NCBI GenBank assembly: GCA_018664075.1
Contig: JABJOY010000009.1
Location: forward strand, 1-38,992
Direction: 5' to 3'
From: Porticoccaceae bacterium
Lineage (GTDB): Bacteria; Pseudomonadota; Gammaproteobacteria; Pseudomonadales; Porticoccaceae
Length of the DNA stretch: 38,992 nt
In this document: one piece after another, positions 84 through 33,142 of the stretch
Layout: every line of letters starts with the position of its first letter
Numbering within the stretch: the first letter of the stretch is position 1
Notes under the pieces: model-generated
Seen by the model: the letters and a program-made list of their open reading frames with translations, nothing else
What the model was told of the DNA's origin: nothing
Database searches by the model: none
Position numbers and translations under genes: made by a program

Positions 84-160
84 TGGTAGCTACGGGTGGA
101 CTTGAACCACCGACCCCAGCATTATGAATGCTGTGCTCTAACCAGCTGAGCTACGTAGCC
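84..160 (-). tRNA. tRNA-Met (CAT), elongator
   Basis: A 77-nt cloverleaf reads on the minus strand. The anticodon arm is CAGCA-TTCATAA-TGCTG, giving anticodon CAT. The T arm is GGTGG-TTCAAGT-CCACC and CCA is encoded at 84-86. The start GGCTACGTAGCTCAG is that of elongator tRNA-Met, not the initiator. The first acceptor pair is G1-U72 instead of the usual G-C. In Pseudomonas a tRNA-Met also follows ychF, so this is the conserved end of the block, separated here from ychF by two inserted genes. Confidence 0.95.
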
Positions 161-6194: not shown

Positions 6195-6269
6195 TGGCTG
6201 GGGCGGGAGGATTCGAACCTCCGATGCCGGGATCAAAACCCGGTGCCTTAACCACTTGGCGACGCCCCA
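6195..6269 (-). tRNA. tRNA-Gln (TTG)
   Basis: A 75-nt cloverleaf on the minus strand. The acceptor is TGGGGCG with CGCCCCA plus an encoded CCA, and the anticodon arm CCGGG-TTTTGAT-CCCGG gives TTG. The T arm is GGAGG-TTCGAAT-CCTCC. It sits between ispE and prs, the same position as in Pseudomonas. Its 5' 22 nt also encode the last codons and stop of ispE. No separate promoter is visible, so it is probably cut from the ispE-prs transcript. Confidence 0.95.
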
Positions 6270-26644: not shown

Positions 26645-27145
26645 TTATAGCTTGACGATACCTTGCATTGAGCAGTTTGCCAATAGCGCGGCGATATTTT
26701 CGCCATTTGGCAGGCTCAGCTGTGGTTCTATCTCGGTCAATGGTGCCAGCACAAAGCCGCGCTCGCGCATACGCGGGTGGGGCAGAGTCAGACGATCACA
26801 ATCTTGCACCAGCTGGTTATACAGCAAAATATCCAAATCCAGAGTTCTGGCTCCCCAGCGGATATTGCGTACCCGGCCCTGCTGCTGCTCAATGGATTGC
26901 AAATAATCCAATAGTTGCAATGGGGTCAGCTGGGTTTCAAGCTTGGCTGCGGCATTAATATAATCCGCCTGCTCCCCAGGGCCTATGGGTGGCGTCTGGT
27001 AGAAGCTGGATACTGTGACAAGGTTTATTTGCCTGTGTGAAGACAGGCTGTTCAGGGCTTTGTTGAGCTGTGCCTGAGGCGCGACTATGTGGCCATCGAC
27101 ATTGTCACTGAGATTGCTACCCAGCCCTATATAAGCCAGAGCCAT
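26645..27145 (-). CDS. folK: HPPK, 6-hydroxymethyl-dihydropterin pyrophosphokinase
   Basis: A 166-aa folate-pathway enzyme that pyrophosphorylates hydroxymethyl-dihydropterin with ATP. AYIGLGSNLSDN at the start, VSSFYQTPPIGPGEQADYINAAAKLET and the signature RNIRWGARTLDLDILLYN followed by LTLPHPRMRERGFVL leave no doubt. The start overlaps the pcnB stop by one base (TAATG), so translation is likely coupled, as in many gammaproteobacteria. Confidence 0.97.
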   Translation of the reverse strand: MALAYIGLGSNLSDNVDGHIVAPQAQLNKALNSLSSHRQINLVTVSSFYQTPPIGPGEQADYINAAAKLETQLTPLQLLDYLQSIEQQQGRVRNIRWGARTLDLDILLYNQLVQDCDRLTLPHPRMRERGFVLAPLTEIEPQLSLPNGENIAALLANCSMQGIVKL

Positions 27146-28494
27146 TAGTCGACTCTGGGTTTTCTTGGTTTTCTGCGCTTGCGATTGCGTCCAGGTTCAC
27201 CGAGCGCTTTGGACATTTGATGTTGTTTTTCTTCGTCGGCATTCTGGTAGGCAGTCCACCAGTCTCCCAGACCGCTGAGTTCCTCTCCAGCCTGTTCCCG
27301 GAGCAGCACAAAGTCATAGGCGGCACGAAAACGTGGATGTTCGACAAGGCGCTTGGCTCTGTGACCGCCGCGGCGGGGCAGCAGCAGCTGTAAATCCCAT
27401 ATCTCACGCATGGGCATGGTAAAGCGTTTGGGAATAGCGGTAATTGGGATCTGTTTGGCGATCACTTCGCCCGCAGCTTTGCTCAGGGCGTAGGCTGGGC
27501 TATTGCCCCGGTCGCGATAGCGAGAGGCCAATTGCTGCACCGATGGCCACAGCAGAGCTGCATAGATAAAGGCTGGAGTAACCCGCTTGTTGCTGCGAAT
27601 GCGCAGGTCAGTATTGGTAAAGGCCTGCTCAATAAGCTTGCCAGTCAGGCTGTTTCGATCTTTCATCATGGCGCTGACCTGGGGGGCAATATAGTCAAAC
27701 AGGCCATATTCGTAGAGCAGCCAGAATGTGGCCAGGCCCTGTCCGCTCATAAACAGTTTTAAGGTTTCATCAAACAGGCGCGGTGGCGATACATGTTCGA
27801 GATTGGCCGCCAGCTTGCGCATTGGCTTTTCAGTGACAGGGTCAATGCTGAATCCCAGTTTAGCGGCAAAGCGGGCTACCCGCAGCAGGCGCACAGGATC
27901 TTCACGGAATCTGGTGGCAGGGTCGCCCATTATGCGGATAATGCGGTCGTCAATATCCTCGAGACCATCAGCGAAATCATGGATGCTATTGTCGCTGGGG
28001 TCGTAGTACAGGGCATTGATAGTCAGATCACGGCGGCTGGCATCATCGCTGATGGAGCCAAATACATTATCCCTGGTGAGCACACCGGAATCAGCTTGCT
28101 GGCGTCTGCTGCCACCTTTTTTATCCGTGCCTTTGCTTTCGTTGGAACGGAAGGTCGTGACCTCAATCAGCTCGCGGCCAAACTGCACATGCACAATTTG
28201 AAAGCGACGACCGATAATTCGTGAGCGCCTGAACAGAGGTTTGATCTCACCAGGCTTGGCATTGGTGGCGACATCGAAATCTTTGGGCTTGAGTCCCAGC
28301 AGCAGGTCGCGAACCGAGCCGCCTACCACATAGGCTTCATAGCCATTCTCCTGCAATACTTCGACGACTTTGCGCGCGTCTCTGCTAATCATTTTCGGCG
28401 ACAGTGAGTGTTGGTCACTGGGCACGACTCTGTGCTCACCAACATTATGCTGGTGAGCGTCTTTGGAGAAAAATCTACTGATACGTTTCAGCAT
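27145..28494 (-). CDS. pcnB: Poly(A) polymerase I
   Basis: A 449-aa nucleotidyltransferase that adds poly(A) tails to RNA 3' ends and so speeds decay. The active site is in YVVGGSVRDLLLGLKPKDFDVATNA (GGS and the DxD pair, about residues 56-80), followed by the class II NTase RNA-binding parts (REDPVRLLRVARFAAKLGF) and a basic C-terminus (RNRKRRKPRKP) that distinguishes it from CCA-adding enzyme. The 95-bp leader (28495-28589) follows the terminator of a small RNA. Promoter boxes there are not clear. Confidence 0.96.
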   Translation of the reverse strand: MLKRISRFFSKDAHQHNVGEHRVVPSDQHSLSPKMISRDARKVVEVLQENGYEAYVVGGSVRDLLLGLKPKDFDVATNAKPGEIKPLFRRSRIIGRRFQIVHVQFGRELIEVTTFRSNESKGTDKKGGSRRQQADSGVLTRDNVFGSISDDASRRDLTINALYYDPSDNSIHDFADGLEDIDDRIIRIMGDPATRFREDPVRLLRVARFAAKLGFSIDPVTEKPMRKLAANLEHVSPPRLFDETLKLFMSGQGLATFWLLYEYGLFDYIAPQVSAMMKDRNSLTGKLIEQAFTNTDLRIRSNKRVTPAFIYAALLWPSVQQLASRYRDRGNSPAYALSKAAGEVIAKQIPITAIPKRFTMPMREIWDLQLLLPRRGGHRAKRLVEHPRFRAAYDFVLLREQAGEELSGLGDWWTAYQNADEEKQHQMSKALGEPGRNRKRRKPRKPRVD

Positions 28495-28589
28495 GAACAG
28501 CTTGCCGGTGGACTGTTGGGAAGGCGCAGTTTAACAGAGGATCACCAATTACGGGAGCATTGGATTGCGGATGCGTATACTTTGGACAA

Positions 28590-28619
28590 TAAAAAAGGGA
28601 TGTCTTTCGACAACCCCCC
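28590..28619 (-). terminator. Intrinsic terminator of the small RNA upstream of pcnB
   Basis: On the minus strand GGGTTGTC (28609-28616) and GACATCCC (28597-28604) form an 8-position stem with one T-T mismatch, closed by a GAAA tetraloop. A run of six T follows (28591-28596), then ATT. Strength and orientation fit termination of a transcript running toward pcnB. Confidence 0.85.
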
Positions 28620-28719
28620 TCAATGGTTCTTCGAGCTTTAGCTCTGGGAACACTTTTCGCAATCCATCCAATTTTTATTATTCTTTATTGTTATTATTAC
28701 TCAGAGACTCTCTCTGGTG
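28590..28719 (-). ncRNA. Candidate CrcZ-like Hfq-binding small RNA
   Basis: A predicted RNA of about 130 nt, read toward pcnB. In order it has: a 5' hairpin CAGAGA-GAG-TCTCTG; an unpaired A-rich stretch with six consecutive ARN triplets (28684-28701: AGU AAU AAU AAC AAU AAA), one G, then four more (28671-28682: AAU AAU AAA AAU); a GTTC/GAGC-TAAA-GCTC/GAAC stem; and the GAAA-loop terminator. Six ARN triplets are what the Hfq hexamer's distal face binds, and the repeats fit the AAnAAnAA 'CA motif' of Pseudomonas Crc/Hfq targets. It lies between cbrB and pcnB, where pseudomonads encode crcZ. No open reading frame with a ribosome-binding site fits here. Homology to CrcZ is by place and motif, not by sequence alignment. 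Confidence 0.7.
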
Positions 28720-28725
28720 CTTTTC

Positions 28726-28753
28726 ATTCTAATCAGAATTTTTTTTGCTTCAA
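28726..28753 (-). promoter_or_regulatory. Sigma-70-type promoter of the small RNA
   Basis: TTGAAG (28748-28753) and TAGAAT (28726-28731) are spaced by 16 bp on the minus strand, with an A tract between them. Transcription should start at about 28719. No sigma-54 signature (GG-N10-GC in the TGGCAC/TTGC context) could be read in the 130 bp upstream, unlike Pseudomonas crcZ. Confidence 0.65.
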
Positions 28754-28783: not shown

Positions 28784-28831
28784 AGAAACAGAGTATTTTG
28801 TTACTTTTAGAAACAGCTTTTGGCAGAAACA
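28784..28831 (-). promoter_or_regulatory. Three TGTTTCT repeats upstream of the small-RNA promoter; possible CbrB sites
   Basis: Read on the minus strand, TGTTTCT occurs at 28825-28831, 28809-28815 and 28784-28790. The two proximal copies extend to a nine-base identity CTGTTTCTA with 25-bp period. A GTAACA (28799-28804) lies between them in the opposite sense. CbrB half-sites in Pseudomonas, as I recall, resemble TGTTAC/GTAACA. At about -65 to -110 from the predicted start, they are placed as activator sites. Confidence 0.45.
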
Positions 28832-28849: not shown

Positions 28850-30106
28850 TCAGGCTTTTTTCCGACTGATACCCAGTTTGTTGCGTCGCTCCCACAGGGA
28901 TTTACGGCTGATGCCCAGCTTTTGTGCCAGTGCAGTTTCACTCATATTTTCCTGGTTTTCCAGGACGAAGCTGGTGAAATAGTCTTCCAGAGAGAGTCCG
29001 GCTGGCCCATCAATAGCAGGGTTTGTGGTCATGCTCTTTTCGTCAGCAGATGGTTCATCATGGGTCTGGGGAGCGTCGCCCAGACCCAGCATATCGGGTT
29101 CTAGCAGCTCTCCGGTCTCCGCCAAAATGGCACCTTGATAGATTGTATTTTGCAGTTCCTGAACATTGCCCGGCCAGCTGTAATCCAGCAGAGCCTGCTT
29201 CGCCTCGCTCGACAGATTGATCTCCAGATTTAGTTCGCTACTGTACCTATCGATAAAATGTTCTATTAGAGCAGGTATATCCCCGGCCCGCTCGCGCAGC
29301 GTTGGCACTAGAATCTTGACCACATTGAGGCTGTAAAAGAGATCTTTACGGAAGCGCCCGGTTTGGGTGAGTACTCTGAGATCCTGCTCCACCGATGCAA
29401 CGAAACGAAAATTTGCCTGCTGTATTGCTCTGAGTATCTGAGGCTGCATTGGGCCGGGAAGTTCGCAGATGTTATTCAGGAACAATGTGCCTGAGCCGTC
29501 TTGTTCCAAAATCTGGGATAGTTCAGCACTGCTAACCGAAGCGCAGTTGATAGTGATAAAAGGCTGTCCTGCAAAGCTACTACCCGCATGTATGGTCTCT
29601 GCAACAGTGCGCCTGCCTGTGCCATTTTCACCATGGATCAACACAGGGGCAGAAGTGGGCGCCGCTTTGTGTACAGTACGCAGAATTTTCAGTATCTCCG
29701 GGCTATTGCCCATGAGTAACCTGTTGGGCTCTGGGCGAGCCTGCTTTGATTCCCCCAGTATACGCCGCACTGCATTGAGCATTTCGTCATGGTCAAAGGG
29801 TTTGGATACGTAGTCGGCTGCCCCCTGACGCATGGTATCAACAGCAGAGCGCAGGCTGGCATAGCTGGTCATAATCATTACTGGCACATTGCCCGCGGCC
29901 TTAATCAGGTCGGTGCCGGCGCTGCCCGGCAAGCGTAGATCACTGATGACCAGGTCGAAGTCATTGAGATTATATGACTGCTGTGCCGCTTTGACACTGA
30001 TGGCTTCAGAGATGTTGAAATCGTGACGCTCAAGCAGCTTGCGCAGGGAGGTACGAATAATATCTTCGTCTTCAACAATAAGAATATGATGATTGTTCAT
30101 GCTCAT
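28850..30106 (-). CDS. cbrB: CbrB-type response regulator with degenerate AAA+ domain
   Basis: A 418-aa NtrC-family regulator. The receiver domain (ILIVEDEDIIRTSLRKLLERHDF; phospho-acceptor Asp56 in SDLRLPG; MTSYAS; KPFDHDE) and the C-terminal Fis-type helix-turn-helix (LSLEDYFTSFVLENQ, then TALAQKLGISRKSLWERR) match CbrB closely. The central domain is abnormal: Walker A reads GENGTGRR (lysine lost), the sigma-54-contacting GAFTGA loop is missing with about 20 neighbouring residues, Walker B reads FLNNICELP instead of FLDEIGELP, and the following sensor I stretch is shortened. It should bind DNA but not hydrolyse ATP or open sigma-54 promoters. The start overlaps the cbrA stop (ATGA); a second ATG six bases on is possible. 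Confidence 0.88.
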   Translation of the reverse strand: MSMNNHHILIVEDEDIIRTSLRKLLERHDFNISEAISVKAAQQSYNLNDFDLVISDLRLPGSAGTDLIKAAGNVPVMIMTSYASLRSAVDTMRQGAADYVSKPFDHDEMLNAVRRILGESKQARPEPNRLLMGNSPEILKILRTVHKAAPTSAPVLIHGENGTGRRTVAETIHAGSSFAGQPFITINCASVSSAELSQILEQDGSGTLFLNNICELPGPMQPQILRAIQQANFRFVASVEQDLRVLTQTGRFRKDLFYSLNVVKILVPTLRERAGDIPALIEHFIDRYSSELNLEINLSSEAKQALLDYSWPGNVQELQNTIYQGAILAETGELLEPDMLGLGDAPQTHDEPSADEKSMTTNPAIDGPAGLSLEDYFTSFVLENQENMSETALAQKLGISRKSLWERRNKLGISRKKA

Positions 30107-32976
30107 ACTGCGGATGATAGGGGAAAACTGATGGTTGCAGTAGTGCCACATTGGCTATTTTCTGCAGGACTGCTGATGGAGATTTCAGCACCAAGACTTT
30201 TTACCAGATTAAACACCACCCAAAGCCCCAATCCAGTGCCGCTGCCTGGGTCTTTGCTGGTGACAAAGGGCTCAAAAAGGTGGCTCTGGAGGCTGTCCTC
30301 AATGCCAGTACCCTGATCGCTGACTTTGAGGTGAACATGTTTGTCAGTGCTGTCAGCGGTAATGCTGATAACGCCTCCCTGTGGGGATGCATCCCGGGCA
30401 TTGCTCAACAGATTGAGGAATATTTGCAGCAGCTGGTTGTAATCGCCATCAATGGTTAATTCCGGATCGATGATTGATCTGAAATTGACGGCAATCGGCG
30501 AGGGACTCATGGTGAGCAATCTAATGGCCTCCTCAGCCGCTCTCTGAAGCTCGATCTTTTGTCGGCTTTTACTCAGGGCACTACCGCCTTTGGAAAAGCT
30601 GATCAGTGACTGAACAATGCGATTGATACGCTGGGTCTGGGACAGGATTTGCTCCGCAGACTCGGCGATCTGACCGGTTTCAGTTTCATGCTGCAGATTC
30701 TGCGCGAGACAGGCAATACCAGTGACAGGGTTGCCAATTTCATGGGCAACCCCGGCTGCCAGGCGTCCAACTGAAGCCAGACGTTCATTGTCGATCGCTT
30801 TTTGGATAAGATTTATTGCTTTGGTGTTGTCTTCAATCAGCACAACAATATCTGTGTCCGGGTCAGGGTTAATATGCTGGGCTGATTTTTGCAGGCCGAA
30901 CCATCGCACTTGATCCCCGAATTCCAGGCGCAGTTCATCAAGCACTGTCGAATCACTAGCAATAAAGCTGCTAATGGCGCTGCCCCAGGGCTCTGGTAAG
31001 TCGTTGATAGAACTACCGGTCACAGTTTTGCTGTCCCAGCCGGTGTAGTCAGCCAGAGTTGTATTCCATTTAATAATTTCACCTGACTGGTCCACAGAGA
31101 TAACCCCTATGGGCAGATTGTCGATAATTTCCCGATGATGCATGCGCAGCTTGTTCAGTTCGCTGGCAATACCAGTGAGGCGGTCACCATGGATAGCCAG
31201 TGCAGATTCAATCAGATAGATATCATCTGGCTCATTGGCCGCGGGAATGGTCACAGGCAGGGATTTTTCCATAATCCGGTTTGCAGTCAGCACGCCGAAA
31301 CGCATATTTAATGAGGCATTGATATTGTCGCGCAGCTGCCGCAGGGCAGAGGGTCTGACTTCGGCCTGATCAAATCCCAGATTATCCAGAGCTTTGGCAA
31401 CTTCGCTGTCGGCGGCCTCCCCCAGAGACAGGCGCAGACTGGAGGTAATTTCGGCCACGGATTTCTGCGTGATTTCTACCCGGGCCGGGATATAGACATT
31501 GTCTATCATACACACTGCGGCAAAGGACTTCTGTTCGGCATCCATGGGCCCAAAGACACTGAATATTATGCAGACGGTAATATTGACCAGCAGTGCCTCA
31601 ATGGCCCATATATTCCAGTTCTGCATGCCGAATTGAATGGTAGTGTCTGAAATAGGAAGTTGCCAGCTCCAGTCACCAAACAGCAGGGGCAATGCGATAG
31701 TTATTAGCCACAGGGAAATACCGGCCACCAGACCGCCGATAAATCCACGACGATTAACATTGGGTAGATATATGGCAGCAAGCATGCCCGGAGTTAGCTG
31801 TGCCAGTCCTGAAAATCCTGCCAGATAATAATCGGTGATGCTGCGGCTCTTAACCAACAGGCTCAATGCTGCGCAGAATACAATCAGACAGACTGCGATA
31901 AGGCCTTGTCGCTGCTTGAGCCAGGCGGATAACCGGGGCTGCAGATACAGCTTCTTGCTTGGCAGCAGAAAGCTGTTCATTAATATTTTTGACCAGATCA
32001 ATATCAGGCTACAGGAAAATGACAGGCCCAGTAACATAATGCTGGCTGTTCCCAGACCAGCCACTGAGGGGTGACTGGTCAGCGCAGGCAGGTTGTACAG
32101 GTATTCCTGTAGTGGTGAAAACGACTGCACCGAGATACCAGCCCAGAGCAGAGGGAATACTGGAATACAGGCGAGTAATACCAGCAGTGGGTAGGCCCAG
32201 GAGGTCATCCCGGTCTGTCGCTCGGAAATATTATCTGATACCAGCAGGCTAAAATTAATTGGTGAGGCAAAGCTGGCGATCAGGAAAATAGTAAAAATGC
32301 TGTAGGACAGGTCCATACGCTTAACAATATTGAGCTGCCCGCTATCAGCGATCCAGTTGTTCATTTCTCCCAGGGAGCCAAATATAGTCTCGATTGATGT
32401 CCAGGCAGAGAATCCCAGTGCCGGAAGCAGCAGCAGGCCCGCCGCTGTCATTATCCAGCCCAGATGATTGCTCGTGCCAACCTGAATTGAGCGCAGATTA
32501 ATAGCTACAAGAGCAGCACTGATAAGCAGCAGCACCAGCAGCTGGTAATCGTCGTTTAGCAGATAACTTGCGACTGCCTGAATGGCAGTAATCTGGGCCA
32601 GAATCAGTGGCAAGGTGGCGACTATAAGGCTGACGCAGGTAATCATGGCAACTGACTTGTTGCGAAATCTAAATGTCAGAAAATCCACTGGTGTGGCAAA
32701 GCGGATAATCTCATTGAGCCGGCGAATCGGCGCTAAAATAAGGGGTGATAGAACAAATACCAGACTAAAGCCCACTAGCGCCAGAATGATGCTGAAGCCG
32801 TAGCGCCCAGCCATTTCAATGGAGCCCATCGCCATAAACACTCCGGTGCCGGAAAATAGCCCCAGACTCAGAGCCAGATCTTTACTGCCGCGGCTAGTCC
32901 GTGCCGATAGCCATTTGGCCACCAGTGCGCTCAGCCCCAGCATAGCGGCGGTTATCAGTAGTATTTCAGGATTCAT
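30103..32976 (-). CDS. cbrA: CbrA-type sensor kinase with sodium:solute symporter domain
   Basis: A 957-aa membrane kinase. The N-terminal half is a sodium:solute symporter domain of about thirteen helices (FSGTGVFMAMGSIEMAGRYG; SPINFSLLVSDN; YYLAGFSGLAQLTPGMLAAIYLPNVNRRGFIGG). Then come a linker, a PAS domain (REIIDNLPIGVISVDQSGEIIKWN), HisKA with the H box AGVAHEIGNP (about residue 742), and HATPase with N box FLNLLSNARDAS and G boxes SDQGTGIED and GSGTGLGL. This is the CbrA architecture, sensing or coupling nutrient uptake to phosphorylation of CbrB. GGGGT lies 5-6 nt before the ATG at 32974-32976, inside the last codons of the small upstream gene; cbrB follows with a 4-bp overlap. Confidence 0.92.
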   Translation of the reverse strand: MNPEILLITAAMLGLSALVAKWLSARTSRGSKDLALSLGLFSGTGVFMAMGSIEMAGRYGFSIILALVGFSLVFVLSPLILAPIRRLNEIIRFATPVDFLTFRFRNKSVAMITCVSLIVATLPLILAQITAIQAVASYLLNDDYQLLVLLLISAALVAINLRSIQVGTSNHLGWIMTAAGLLLLPALGFSAWTSIETIFGSLGEMNNWIADSGQLNIVKRMDLSYSIFTIFLIASFASPINFSLLVSDNISERQTGMTSWAYPLLVLLACIPVFPLLWAGISVQSFSPLQEYLYNLPALTSHPSVAGLGTASIMLLGLSFSCSLILIWSKILMNSFLLPSKKLYLQPRLSAWLKQRQGLIAVCLIVFCAALSLLVKSRSITDYYLAGFSGLAQLTPGMLAAIYLPNVNRRGFIGGLVAGISLWLITIALPLLFGDWSWQLPISDTTIQFGMQNWNIWAIEALLVNITVCIIFSVFGPMDAEQKSFAAVCMIDNVYIPARVEITQKSVAEITSSLRLSLGEAADSEVAKALDNLGFDQAEVRPSALRQLRDNINASLNMRFGVLTANRIMEKSLPVTIPAANEPDDIYLIESALAIHGDRLTGIASELNKLRMHHREIIDNLPIGVISVDQSGEIIKWNTTLADYTGWDSKTVTGSSINDLPEPWGSAISSFIASDSTVLDELRLEFGDQVRWFGLQKSAQHINPDPDTDIVVLIEDNTKAINLIQKAIDNERLASVGRLAAGVAHEIGNPVTGIACLAQNLQHETETGQIAESAEQILSQTQRINRIVQSLISFSKGGSALSKSRQKIELQRAAEEAIRLLTMSPSPIAVNFRSIIDPELTIDGDYNQLLQIFLNLLSNARDASPQGGVISITADSTDKHVHLKVSDQGTGIEDSLQSHLFEPFVTSKDPGSGTGLGLWVVFNLVKSLGAEISISSPAENSQCGTTATISFPLSSAV

Positions 32977-33142
32977 CTGGACCCCGGTGCCTGTAGGCAA
33001 CATAGGCGGCAAATACAATCATGGCCCAGACCACAAAAGGTCTAAACCAATTGCCATCCGGCTCGATCGCCCATTGGGTGGCCATGGGGAAAACCACAAT
33101 ACAGAGCAGGAGTAAGGTTGCAACTAGGCGATAATTAAGCAT
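32966..33142 (-). CDS. Small two-helix membrane protein overlapping cbrA (CbrX-like)
   Basis: A 58-codon frame, too short for usual cut-offs. The protein has two hydrophobic helices (RLVATLLLLCIVVFPMA, about 5-21; FVVWAMIVFAAYVAYR, about 36-51) joined by a short WAIEPDGNWFRP loop, and a charged end RHRGPDES. Its stop lies 11 bp inside cbrA, so translation is likely coupled. Pseudomonas has a small gene, cbrX, in this very place. Such small proteins also accompany other symporter-domain carriers. No clear Shine-Dalgarno site precedes the ATG. A codon-by-codon reading shows no interruption. Confidence 0.75.
   Translation of the reverse strand: MLNYRLVATLLLLCIVVFPMATQWAIEPDGNWFRPFVVWAMIVFAAYVAYRHRGPDES

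Follow-up and report, generated by a model that had tools for sequence, protein, structure and literature searches.

What lies between cbrB and pcnB in a gammaproteobacterium outside the Pseudomonadaceae, and how is it related to CrcZ, the RNA encoded in the same gap in Pseudomonas? According to the available text of PMC4063720, CrcZ titrates Hfq through A-rich stretches that are bound at the distal face of the protein. The question is raised by a 38,992-nucleotide stretch of Porticoccaceae DNA (hereafter the window), in which an earlier note had read an unannotated CrcZ-like small RNA gene. The locus was compared with homologous gaps of relatives, fetched via pcnB, and with loci of other families.

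A small RNA gene in the cbrB-pcnB gap

The candidate gene, about 130 nt long, lies on the minus strand at 28591..28719; its start is placed from the -10 box and its end is the T run. Upstream is cbrB (28850..30151), a response regulator gene, together with a cbrA-like sensor kinase gene (30103..33018; PAS, HisKA and HATPase domain matches), and downstream is pcnB, encoding poly(A) polymerase (27145..28494; TIGR01942, 521.5 bits). All are on the minus strand, and the position is that of crcZ. Along the RNA, on the same strand, lie a 5′ hairpin identified by folding and covariation (28699..28718), an A-R-N tract (28671..28701), a box, GGATGGATTGCG (28658..28669), a central hairpin GAGC-TAAA-GCTC (28633..28644) and an intrinsic terminator with a GAAA loop and six T (28591..28620; T run 28596-28591). 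The terminator was absent from the output of a simple terminator scan, though it is readable in the window sequence, and it ends 97 bp short of pcnB. The folding energy of the RNA is -35 kcal/mol (z -3.2). Two tRNA genes are also present on the minus strand of the window (87-160 and 6198-6269).

Covariation was examined in an alignment of 26 genus RNAs of 125-163 nt (A1), on which RNAalifold returned the 5′ hairpin and the terminator. In these helices 94.1% of cells are paired, 53 of them with changes on both sides. The covariation score was 0.464 compared to 0.261 in shuffles and was reached by 0 of 500; related rows can beat such shuffles without structure, and a second control, in which the structures were slid along the alignment and scored far lower, agrees with real helices. 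Both sides have changed in four of five aligned pairs of the 5′ hairpin. The central hairpin was followed in 15 relatives picked for a short central part, where 100% of cells are paired and three of four pairs have changed on both sides; of five whole-structure measures on this set, one (further pair types) did not stand out from shuffles (195/500). The terminator covaries in both sets. The 5′ hairpin, second stem and GAAA-loop terminator listed in the earlier note are therefore all present, and all of them covary in relatives. The element thus carries the sequence marks of an independent intergenic sRNA gene, namely its own promoter, a conserved structure and an intrinsic terminator. As far as sequence can do so, these results confirm a real, conserved sRNA gene in the window gap.

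A conserved sigma-70-like promoter and an upstream palindrome

A promoter scan identified a sigma-70-like promoter, TTGAAG-16-TAGAAT, at 28726..28753 on the minus strand. The hexamers by themselves are at chance level (2 promoter-like sites against 1.9 expected). When the 28 genus loci that carry the RNA box were scanned for their best match, the same type (-35 TTG, -10 (T/G)A(A/G/C)AAT, spacing 16-17 bp) was conserved in 24 and missing from L034, L088, L091 and L092. The promoter, proposed earlier from its hexamers, is accepted because of this conservation across genus loci and not from the hexamer match itself. The RNA would be transcribed by sigma-70 polymerase.

Further upstream, a motif scan located a palindrome, TGTTTC-N5-GTAACA (N5 = TAAAA; 28799..28815, minus strand), with one mismatch to the CbrB subsites TGTTAC and GTAACA given in the available part of PMC6296734; it is predicted to be a likely CbrB site. 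Its centre is 53.5 bp upstream of the -35 box, and 0 of 100 mononucleotide shuffles match as well. With up to two mismatches the palindrome is present in 10 of the 28 genus loci and unrecognisable in 18. It is placed 53.5-54.5 bp before the -35 box in L007, L008, L010, L013, L014, L016 and L086, and not in L012.

Distribution of the RNA

By reading, the element was recognised in 26 of 30 genus loci; L009 and L011 are cut by contig ends, and L027 and L028 have an 89-bp gap and no element. The earlier note had suggested a covariance search of this gap in related genomes. When this was carried out with a model (R1) built from 26 sequences, matches were obtained in 29 of 37 genus genomes, which bears out the claim of a CrcZ-like sRNA gene at this place; the score in the window itself (28585-28720, 131.5 bits) comes from a sequence that is part of the model. 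Twenty-eight of the 29 matching genomes have one copy, and G009 has a second, partial match at a contig end. Among the non-matching genomes, G001, G022, G193 and G236 have the cbrB-pcnB gap but not the RNA, G012 and G034 have no true pcnB, and G028 and G031 end at the locus. Seven genus genomes are without the RNA at the locus (G001, G022, G193, G236, G360, G383 and G387). The gap is 89 bp in five of the RNA-less loci L080-L085 and 166 bp in L080. At these loci and at L027 CbrB is kept and the gap before pcnB is shortened, mostly to 89 bp, with the sRNA gone; they are natural deletions of the RNA. The earlier note would have given up the gene if relatives that keep the gap had lost the A-R-N runs and the terminator; both proved to be conserved.

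At family loci R1 matched 47 of 64 with E up to 0.03; the non-matches are L080-L085, where the RNA is absent, and eleven others, and parts of the RNA are visible by eye in L094, L096, L120, L122 and L123 despite the lack of a match. Order-wide, at E 0.001 with strict filters, 7 of 293 genomes matched; three belong to the own genus, another three to g23 and g24, and the seventh (G061, E 9.7e-4) to a different family. On 39 named loci clear matches were confined to three SAR92/Porticoccaceae loci, and the Pseudomonas loci searched gave none. The closest named loci among the best 80 of at least 592 are Porticoccaceae UBA1989 and two SAR92 clade genomes (L160-L162).

No CbrB adjoins pcnB in 32 of the 64 family loci fetched, and R1 matched 26 of these 32 at E up to 0.01. 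In the 32 genomes concerned the best match to window CbrB was at most 37% identity, except in G350, where a 140-residue stretch reached 41%; G386 had no match at E 1e-20. A very diverged CbrB could escape such a search. For comparison, the true CbrB of G215 shows 54% and 44% identity in its two halves. In genus g122 (L101, L107, L112, L113, L115 and L117), where CbrB is absent, two tandem R1 matches lie upstream of pcnB, a duplicated sRNA.

These data bear on the reading that the element belongs to pcnB, as its 5′ leader or as a cis-regulatory element, or is a processed 3′ UTR of cbrB mRNA. It does lie between the two genes on their strand, and in Pseudomonas basal CrcZ is supplied by read-through from cbrB, as stated in the available part of PMC8871633. 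The covarying terminator 97 bp before pcnB, the conserved promoter of its own and the persistence of the element at most loci with no CbrB upstream argue for an independent sRNA, and we regard the leader or 3′ UTR reading as most improbable.

CbrB without the GAFTGA loop and the loss of the sigma-54 site

The earlier note missed that CbrB itself is altered, a change that fits the change of promoter. Window CbrB has an AAA+ domain with Walker A region GENGTGRR and Walker B region LFLNNI, and its GAFTGA loop is gone. Neither a CbrB GAFTGA nor a gap site TGGCA(C/T)-N6-TGC was found in any of the 36 genus loci (35 genomes, L028 and L084 being from one genome), 28 of which have the RNA. Genera g25 (L096, L111) and g125 (L141-L143) are also without loop and site. 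At family loci outside the genus that have GAFTGA or GSFTGA, the sigma-54 site is present in 13 of 14 and L120 has a near variant; TGTTAC/GTAACA half sites were seen in the gaps examined by reading. In genera g23, g24 and g124, a sigma-54 site and a CbrB of GAFTGA type occur together with R1-matching RNAs that have the GGATGGATTGC box.

In several loci (L021, L024, L025, L026, L030 and L141-L143) the cbrB frame is just 184-200 codons from stop to stop. The short CbrBs examined whole (L258 for L021, and L024, L025, L141 and L143) consist of a receiver and an HTH with no AAA+ domain, a layout that we take to resemble PrrA/RegA. Receiver-HTH CbrBs of about 190 residues (L258 from G018, L024, L025, L141, L143 and L095) occupy four separate places in the PcnB tree.

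The same pairing was examined in the best 80 of at least 592 named loci, where the CbrB C-terminus lies upstream of pcnB in 62. Within this set, all 53 gaps with a GAFTGA or GSFTGA CbrB hold a -24/-12 site TGGCA(C/T)-N6-TGC, for which the shuffle expectation is at most 0.03 per gap. These 53 gaps are 392-978 bp long, have at least one AAYAAYA motif each (median 6) and come from taxa including Halomonas, Marinobacter, Cellvibrio, Microbulbifer, Spongiibacter and Oceanospirillum; those examined by reading contain A-rich runs, CbrB half sites and terminators. Still within the best 80, seven loci without the loop have no sigma-54 site (L160-L162, L183, L195, L211 and L216; the L211 gap has no AAYAAYA motif), and L174 and L224 have the site and no loop, their CbrB frame being cut short. 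Loop and site have been lost together also in Alcanivoracaceae and two further lineages. In L183 and L195 (Alcanivorax and Alloalcanivorax) GAFTGA is degraded (ERDALPGA) or deleted, and a TTGCAA-type sequence replaces the sigma-54 site ahead of an A-rich CrcZ-like stretch. The cbrB-pcnB gap of L205 (Gammaproteobacterium bin.58) has GACCTGGATGGGG followed by two successive hairpins, and motifs like GACCTGGATGGGG precede the terminator at several other loci (L177, L206 and L231).

Mapped on a 90-row PcnB tree, GAFTGA has changed at least five times and the sigma-54 site seven times; two to four independent pairs agree and none oppose, too few for significance (p 0.125-0.5). Left out of this count were 28 redundant rows (26 Pseudomonas/Halomonas-type named loci, L018 and L023), L174 and L224 with cut CbrB, and loci without CbrB. 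L247 was set by hand to present/present since its CbrB (L116) is frameshifted but has GAFTGA, and the site counted for L246 is in truth a chance occurrence within the L111 RNA. Against a strict rule that pairs GAFTGA with the sigma-54 site stand L095/L257 (G141), with a short CbrB yet sigma-54 site and Crc retained, and L045/L159 (G040) and L055, which have GAFTGA or GAFSGA and no site. L052 and L120 have a near-variant site, TGGCAC-N7-GC, with the T missing. Loss of sigma-54 as the cause of the promoter change was ruled out: RpoN scored over its cut-off in 53 of 56 genomes, including the window genome (G000).

NtrC-type regulators without GAFTGA (Rhodobacter capsulatus and Caulobacter NtrC, VpsR) are reported to act at sigma-70 promoters in the available text of PMC10274813, and window CbrB is, like them, an AAA+ regulator without the sigma-54 loop. 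Given these reports and the similar spacing of palindrome to -35 box in several genus loci, CbrB may act from the palindrome with sigma-70 polymerase, and in part of the genus it probably still sets the rate of transcription from there. Unlike those cases, the change in CbrB is paired with a changed promoter of the sRNA downstream of cbrB itself, and the whole AAA+ domain has been lost in some species.

The A-R-N tract, Hfq and Crc

The tract consists of ten triplets, six (AGT AAT AAT AAC AAT AAA, 28701-28684) and four (AAT AAT AAA AAT, 28682-28671), just as the earlier note counted them, and neither strand of the window has another run that reaches six A-R-N triplets. Of 500 dinucleotide-shuffled versions of the RNA, 0.4% contained ten triplets in runs of at least four. 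In columns 31-51 of A1 the A positions are 96-100% A, with one exception at 69%, and in the edge columns 53-57 they are 62-96% A. The AA of the triplets is kept and the third base, between AA pairs, is variable, a pattern consistent with what the Hfq distal face would demand. The suggestion that six triplets suit this face agrees with the A-R-N periodicity, and the tract is a predicted distal-face site.

The genome encodes an Hfq whose core closely resembles the P. aeruginosa protein and in which Phe replaces Tyr25. Crc, which the earlier note asked to be looked for, was searched with a 259-residue query. None of the 38 genus genomes, which are 71-100% complete and include many drafts, scored above 54 bits, and none of the 6 genomes of g25, g125 and g127 above 35 bits. 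Ten other genera of the family gave 207-241 bits in 15 of 15 genomes, and other families 193-530 bits in 17 of 21, with no such score in four. The sole protein of the Crc fold family found in G000 is an ExoIII-like relative. As to the proposed sequestration of Hfq/Crc, Hfq is present, and since Crc was not found here or elsewhere in the genus, the claim does not apply as stated.

The failure to find Crc, a decaying CbrB and the seven genus genomes without the RNA would suit a relic of crcZ, kept mainly as a terminator of cbrB transcription or as a spacer before pcnB. A terminator needs no covarying 5′ and central hairpins, no conserved A positions and no conserved promoter, and 26 of the 32 family loci with no CbrB retain an R1 match; a relic is thus very unlikely.

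A partly conserved box and the base-pairing alternative

The box, a candidate seed or protein site, separates the A-R-N tract from the central hairpin and is partially conserved in the genus RNAs. GATTGC is present in 20 of 26, GGATGGAT in 14 and the full GGATGGATTGC in 9; the GGATGGATTGC-type box is moderately conserved, far less than the tract, and recurs in the RNAs of g23, g24 and g124. Class II Hfq sRNAs such as ChiX and MgrR bind Hfq via an A-R-N tract and a U-rich 3′ end. The window RNA has both of these and differs from ChiX and MgrR in locus and sequence, and the possible target sites inspected (13 of 30) gave no seed target for it.

The main rival to an Hfq decoy is accordingly a base-pairing sRNA of the class II type, in which tract and U tail bind Hfq, the GGATGGATTGC box is the seed and the tract serves only for loading. 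The position and recurrence of the box and the conservation of its GATTGC speak for it, as do the failure to find Crc and the single A-R-N block, which suits Hfq loading more than titration. In nine genomes the complement of the box occurs at 39 sites, nine of which are the RNA itself, against 11 for a reversed control pattern, an excess over the control. Weighing against it, the full box is kept in far fewer genus RNAs than the tract, and among the 13 of 30 non-self sites inspected none close to a start codon is recurrent; the only site that recurs is deep within a coding gene. We therefore regard base pairing as a possible but rather unlikely main function.

Comparison with CrcZ

An Rfam scan of window and gap with E up to 10 returned chance matches only (GibS, 19 bits against a cut-off of 115). 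The CrcZ model RF01675 had no match in the window; its best match in the genome, 11 bits and lying elsewhere, is noise, and noise matches of like kind occurred in 9 of 14 control genomes. Of 18 loci searched with it, three scored above cut-off, and these belong to Pseudomonas or Stutzerimonas. P36 sRNA (RF01679) lies just upstream of crcZ in L170 (2808-2868), L187 (2701-2761) and L201 (2720-2782) and was not matched in the other 15 of these 18 loci.

The window RNA resembles CrcZ (RF01675; Pseudomonas, Azotobacter) in its place in the cbrB-pcnB gap, in its terminator and, in part of the genus, in CbrB-type half sites upstream. It differs in length (about 130 nt compared to 407), in having one A-R-N block of two adjoining runs where the available text of PMC4063720 describes six A-rich stretches, in a sigma-70-like in place of a sigma-54 promoter, in the Crc that was not found in its genome and in the lack of an Rfam match. 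With CrcY and CrcX it shares the predicted nature of an A-rich, Hfq-titrating RNA; unlike those extra copies, it gives one R1 match per genome in 28 of 29 matching genus genomes. It is CrcZ-like by position and by its presumed action, and not a CrcZ member by Rfam model, promoter, size and partner protein.

Discussion

We consider that the window RNA probably derives from CrcZ and binds Hfq independently of Crc, most likely as a decoy. It would be encoded by a stand-alone sRNA gene that descends, by position, from crcZ and has shrunk to about 130 nt, and its A-R-N tract would bind and titrate Hfq without Crc. A minimal Hfq-binding RNA of this kind is suggested because CrcZ titrates Hfq by A-rich stretches and the Hfq core is near that of P. 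aeruginosa. Since R1 finds nothing in Pseudomonas, RF01675 nothing in the window, and R1 just 7 of 293 genomes in the order, the proposed descent draws on position, promoter context and the intermediate genera. There are points against a decoy: a single block, set against the six stretches described for CrcZ in the part of PMC4063720 available, would make a weak one unless the RNA is abundant, and a pure decoy would have no use for the box next to the tract. The RNA is moreover missing in seven genus genomes, the palindrome is found in 10 of 28 loci, and 4 of 21 other-family genomes also gave no Crc-level score.

It is quite possible, if short of probable, that the circuit has been rewired more than once, the crcZ-type RNA outliving its partners as Crc was lost and CbrB, promoter and RNA changed. 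In such a series CbrB would have passed from a sigma-54 enhancer-binding protein through a GAFTGA-less form to a two-domain receiver-HTH regulator; the promoter of the RNA would have gone from sigma-54 to sigma-70, and the RNA would have shrunk to a minimal Crc-independent Hfq decoy.

The earlier note took a CrcZ-type decoy outside the Pseudomonadaceae, much shorter and with a sigma-70 promoter, to be new. Conservation in the genus supports a short sRNA with a sigma-70-like promoter in the crcZ position there; the locus is not isolated, A-rich gaps with sigma-54 promoters being found in many families. A literature search in a restricted collection returned no report of CrcZ in genera or orders outside the Pseudomonadaceae, and none on SAR92 small RNAs and Hfq. 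Because many genomes of other families have long A-rich gaps with a sigma-54 promoter and CbrB half sites, CrcZ-type loci, as judged from these predicted features, are not confined to the Pseudomonadaceae.

CrcZ-like gaps thus appear in many other families of the order, compared to Pseudomonas and Azotobacter only for the cbrA-cbrB-crcZ arrangement in the available part of a 2022 review (PMC8871633). The loci form a series in evolution along which the separation of the RNA from its activator, promoter and partner protein can be traced, and they suggest a route from an NtrC-type regulator to a sigma-70 regulator. As a minimal candidate Hfq-binding RNA, the product of this gene would allow titration of Hfq without Crc to be tested directly in a marine clade.
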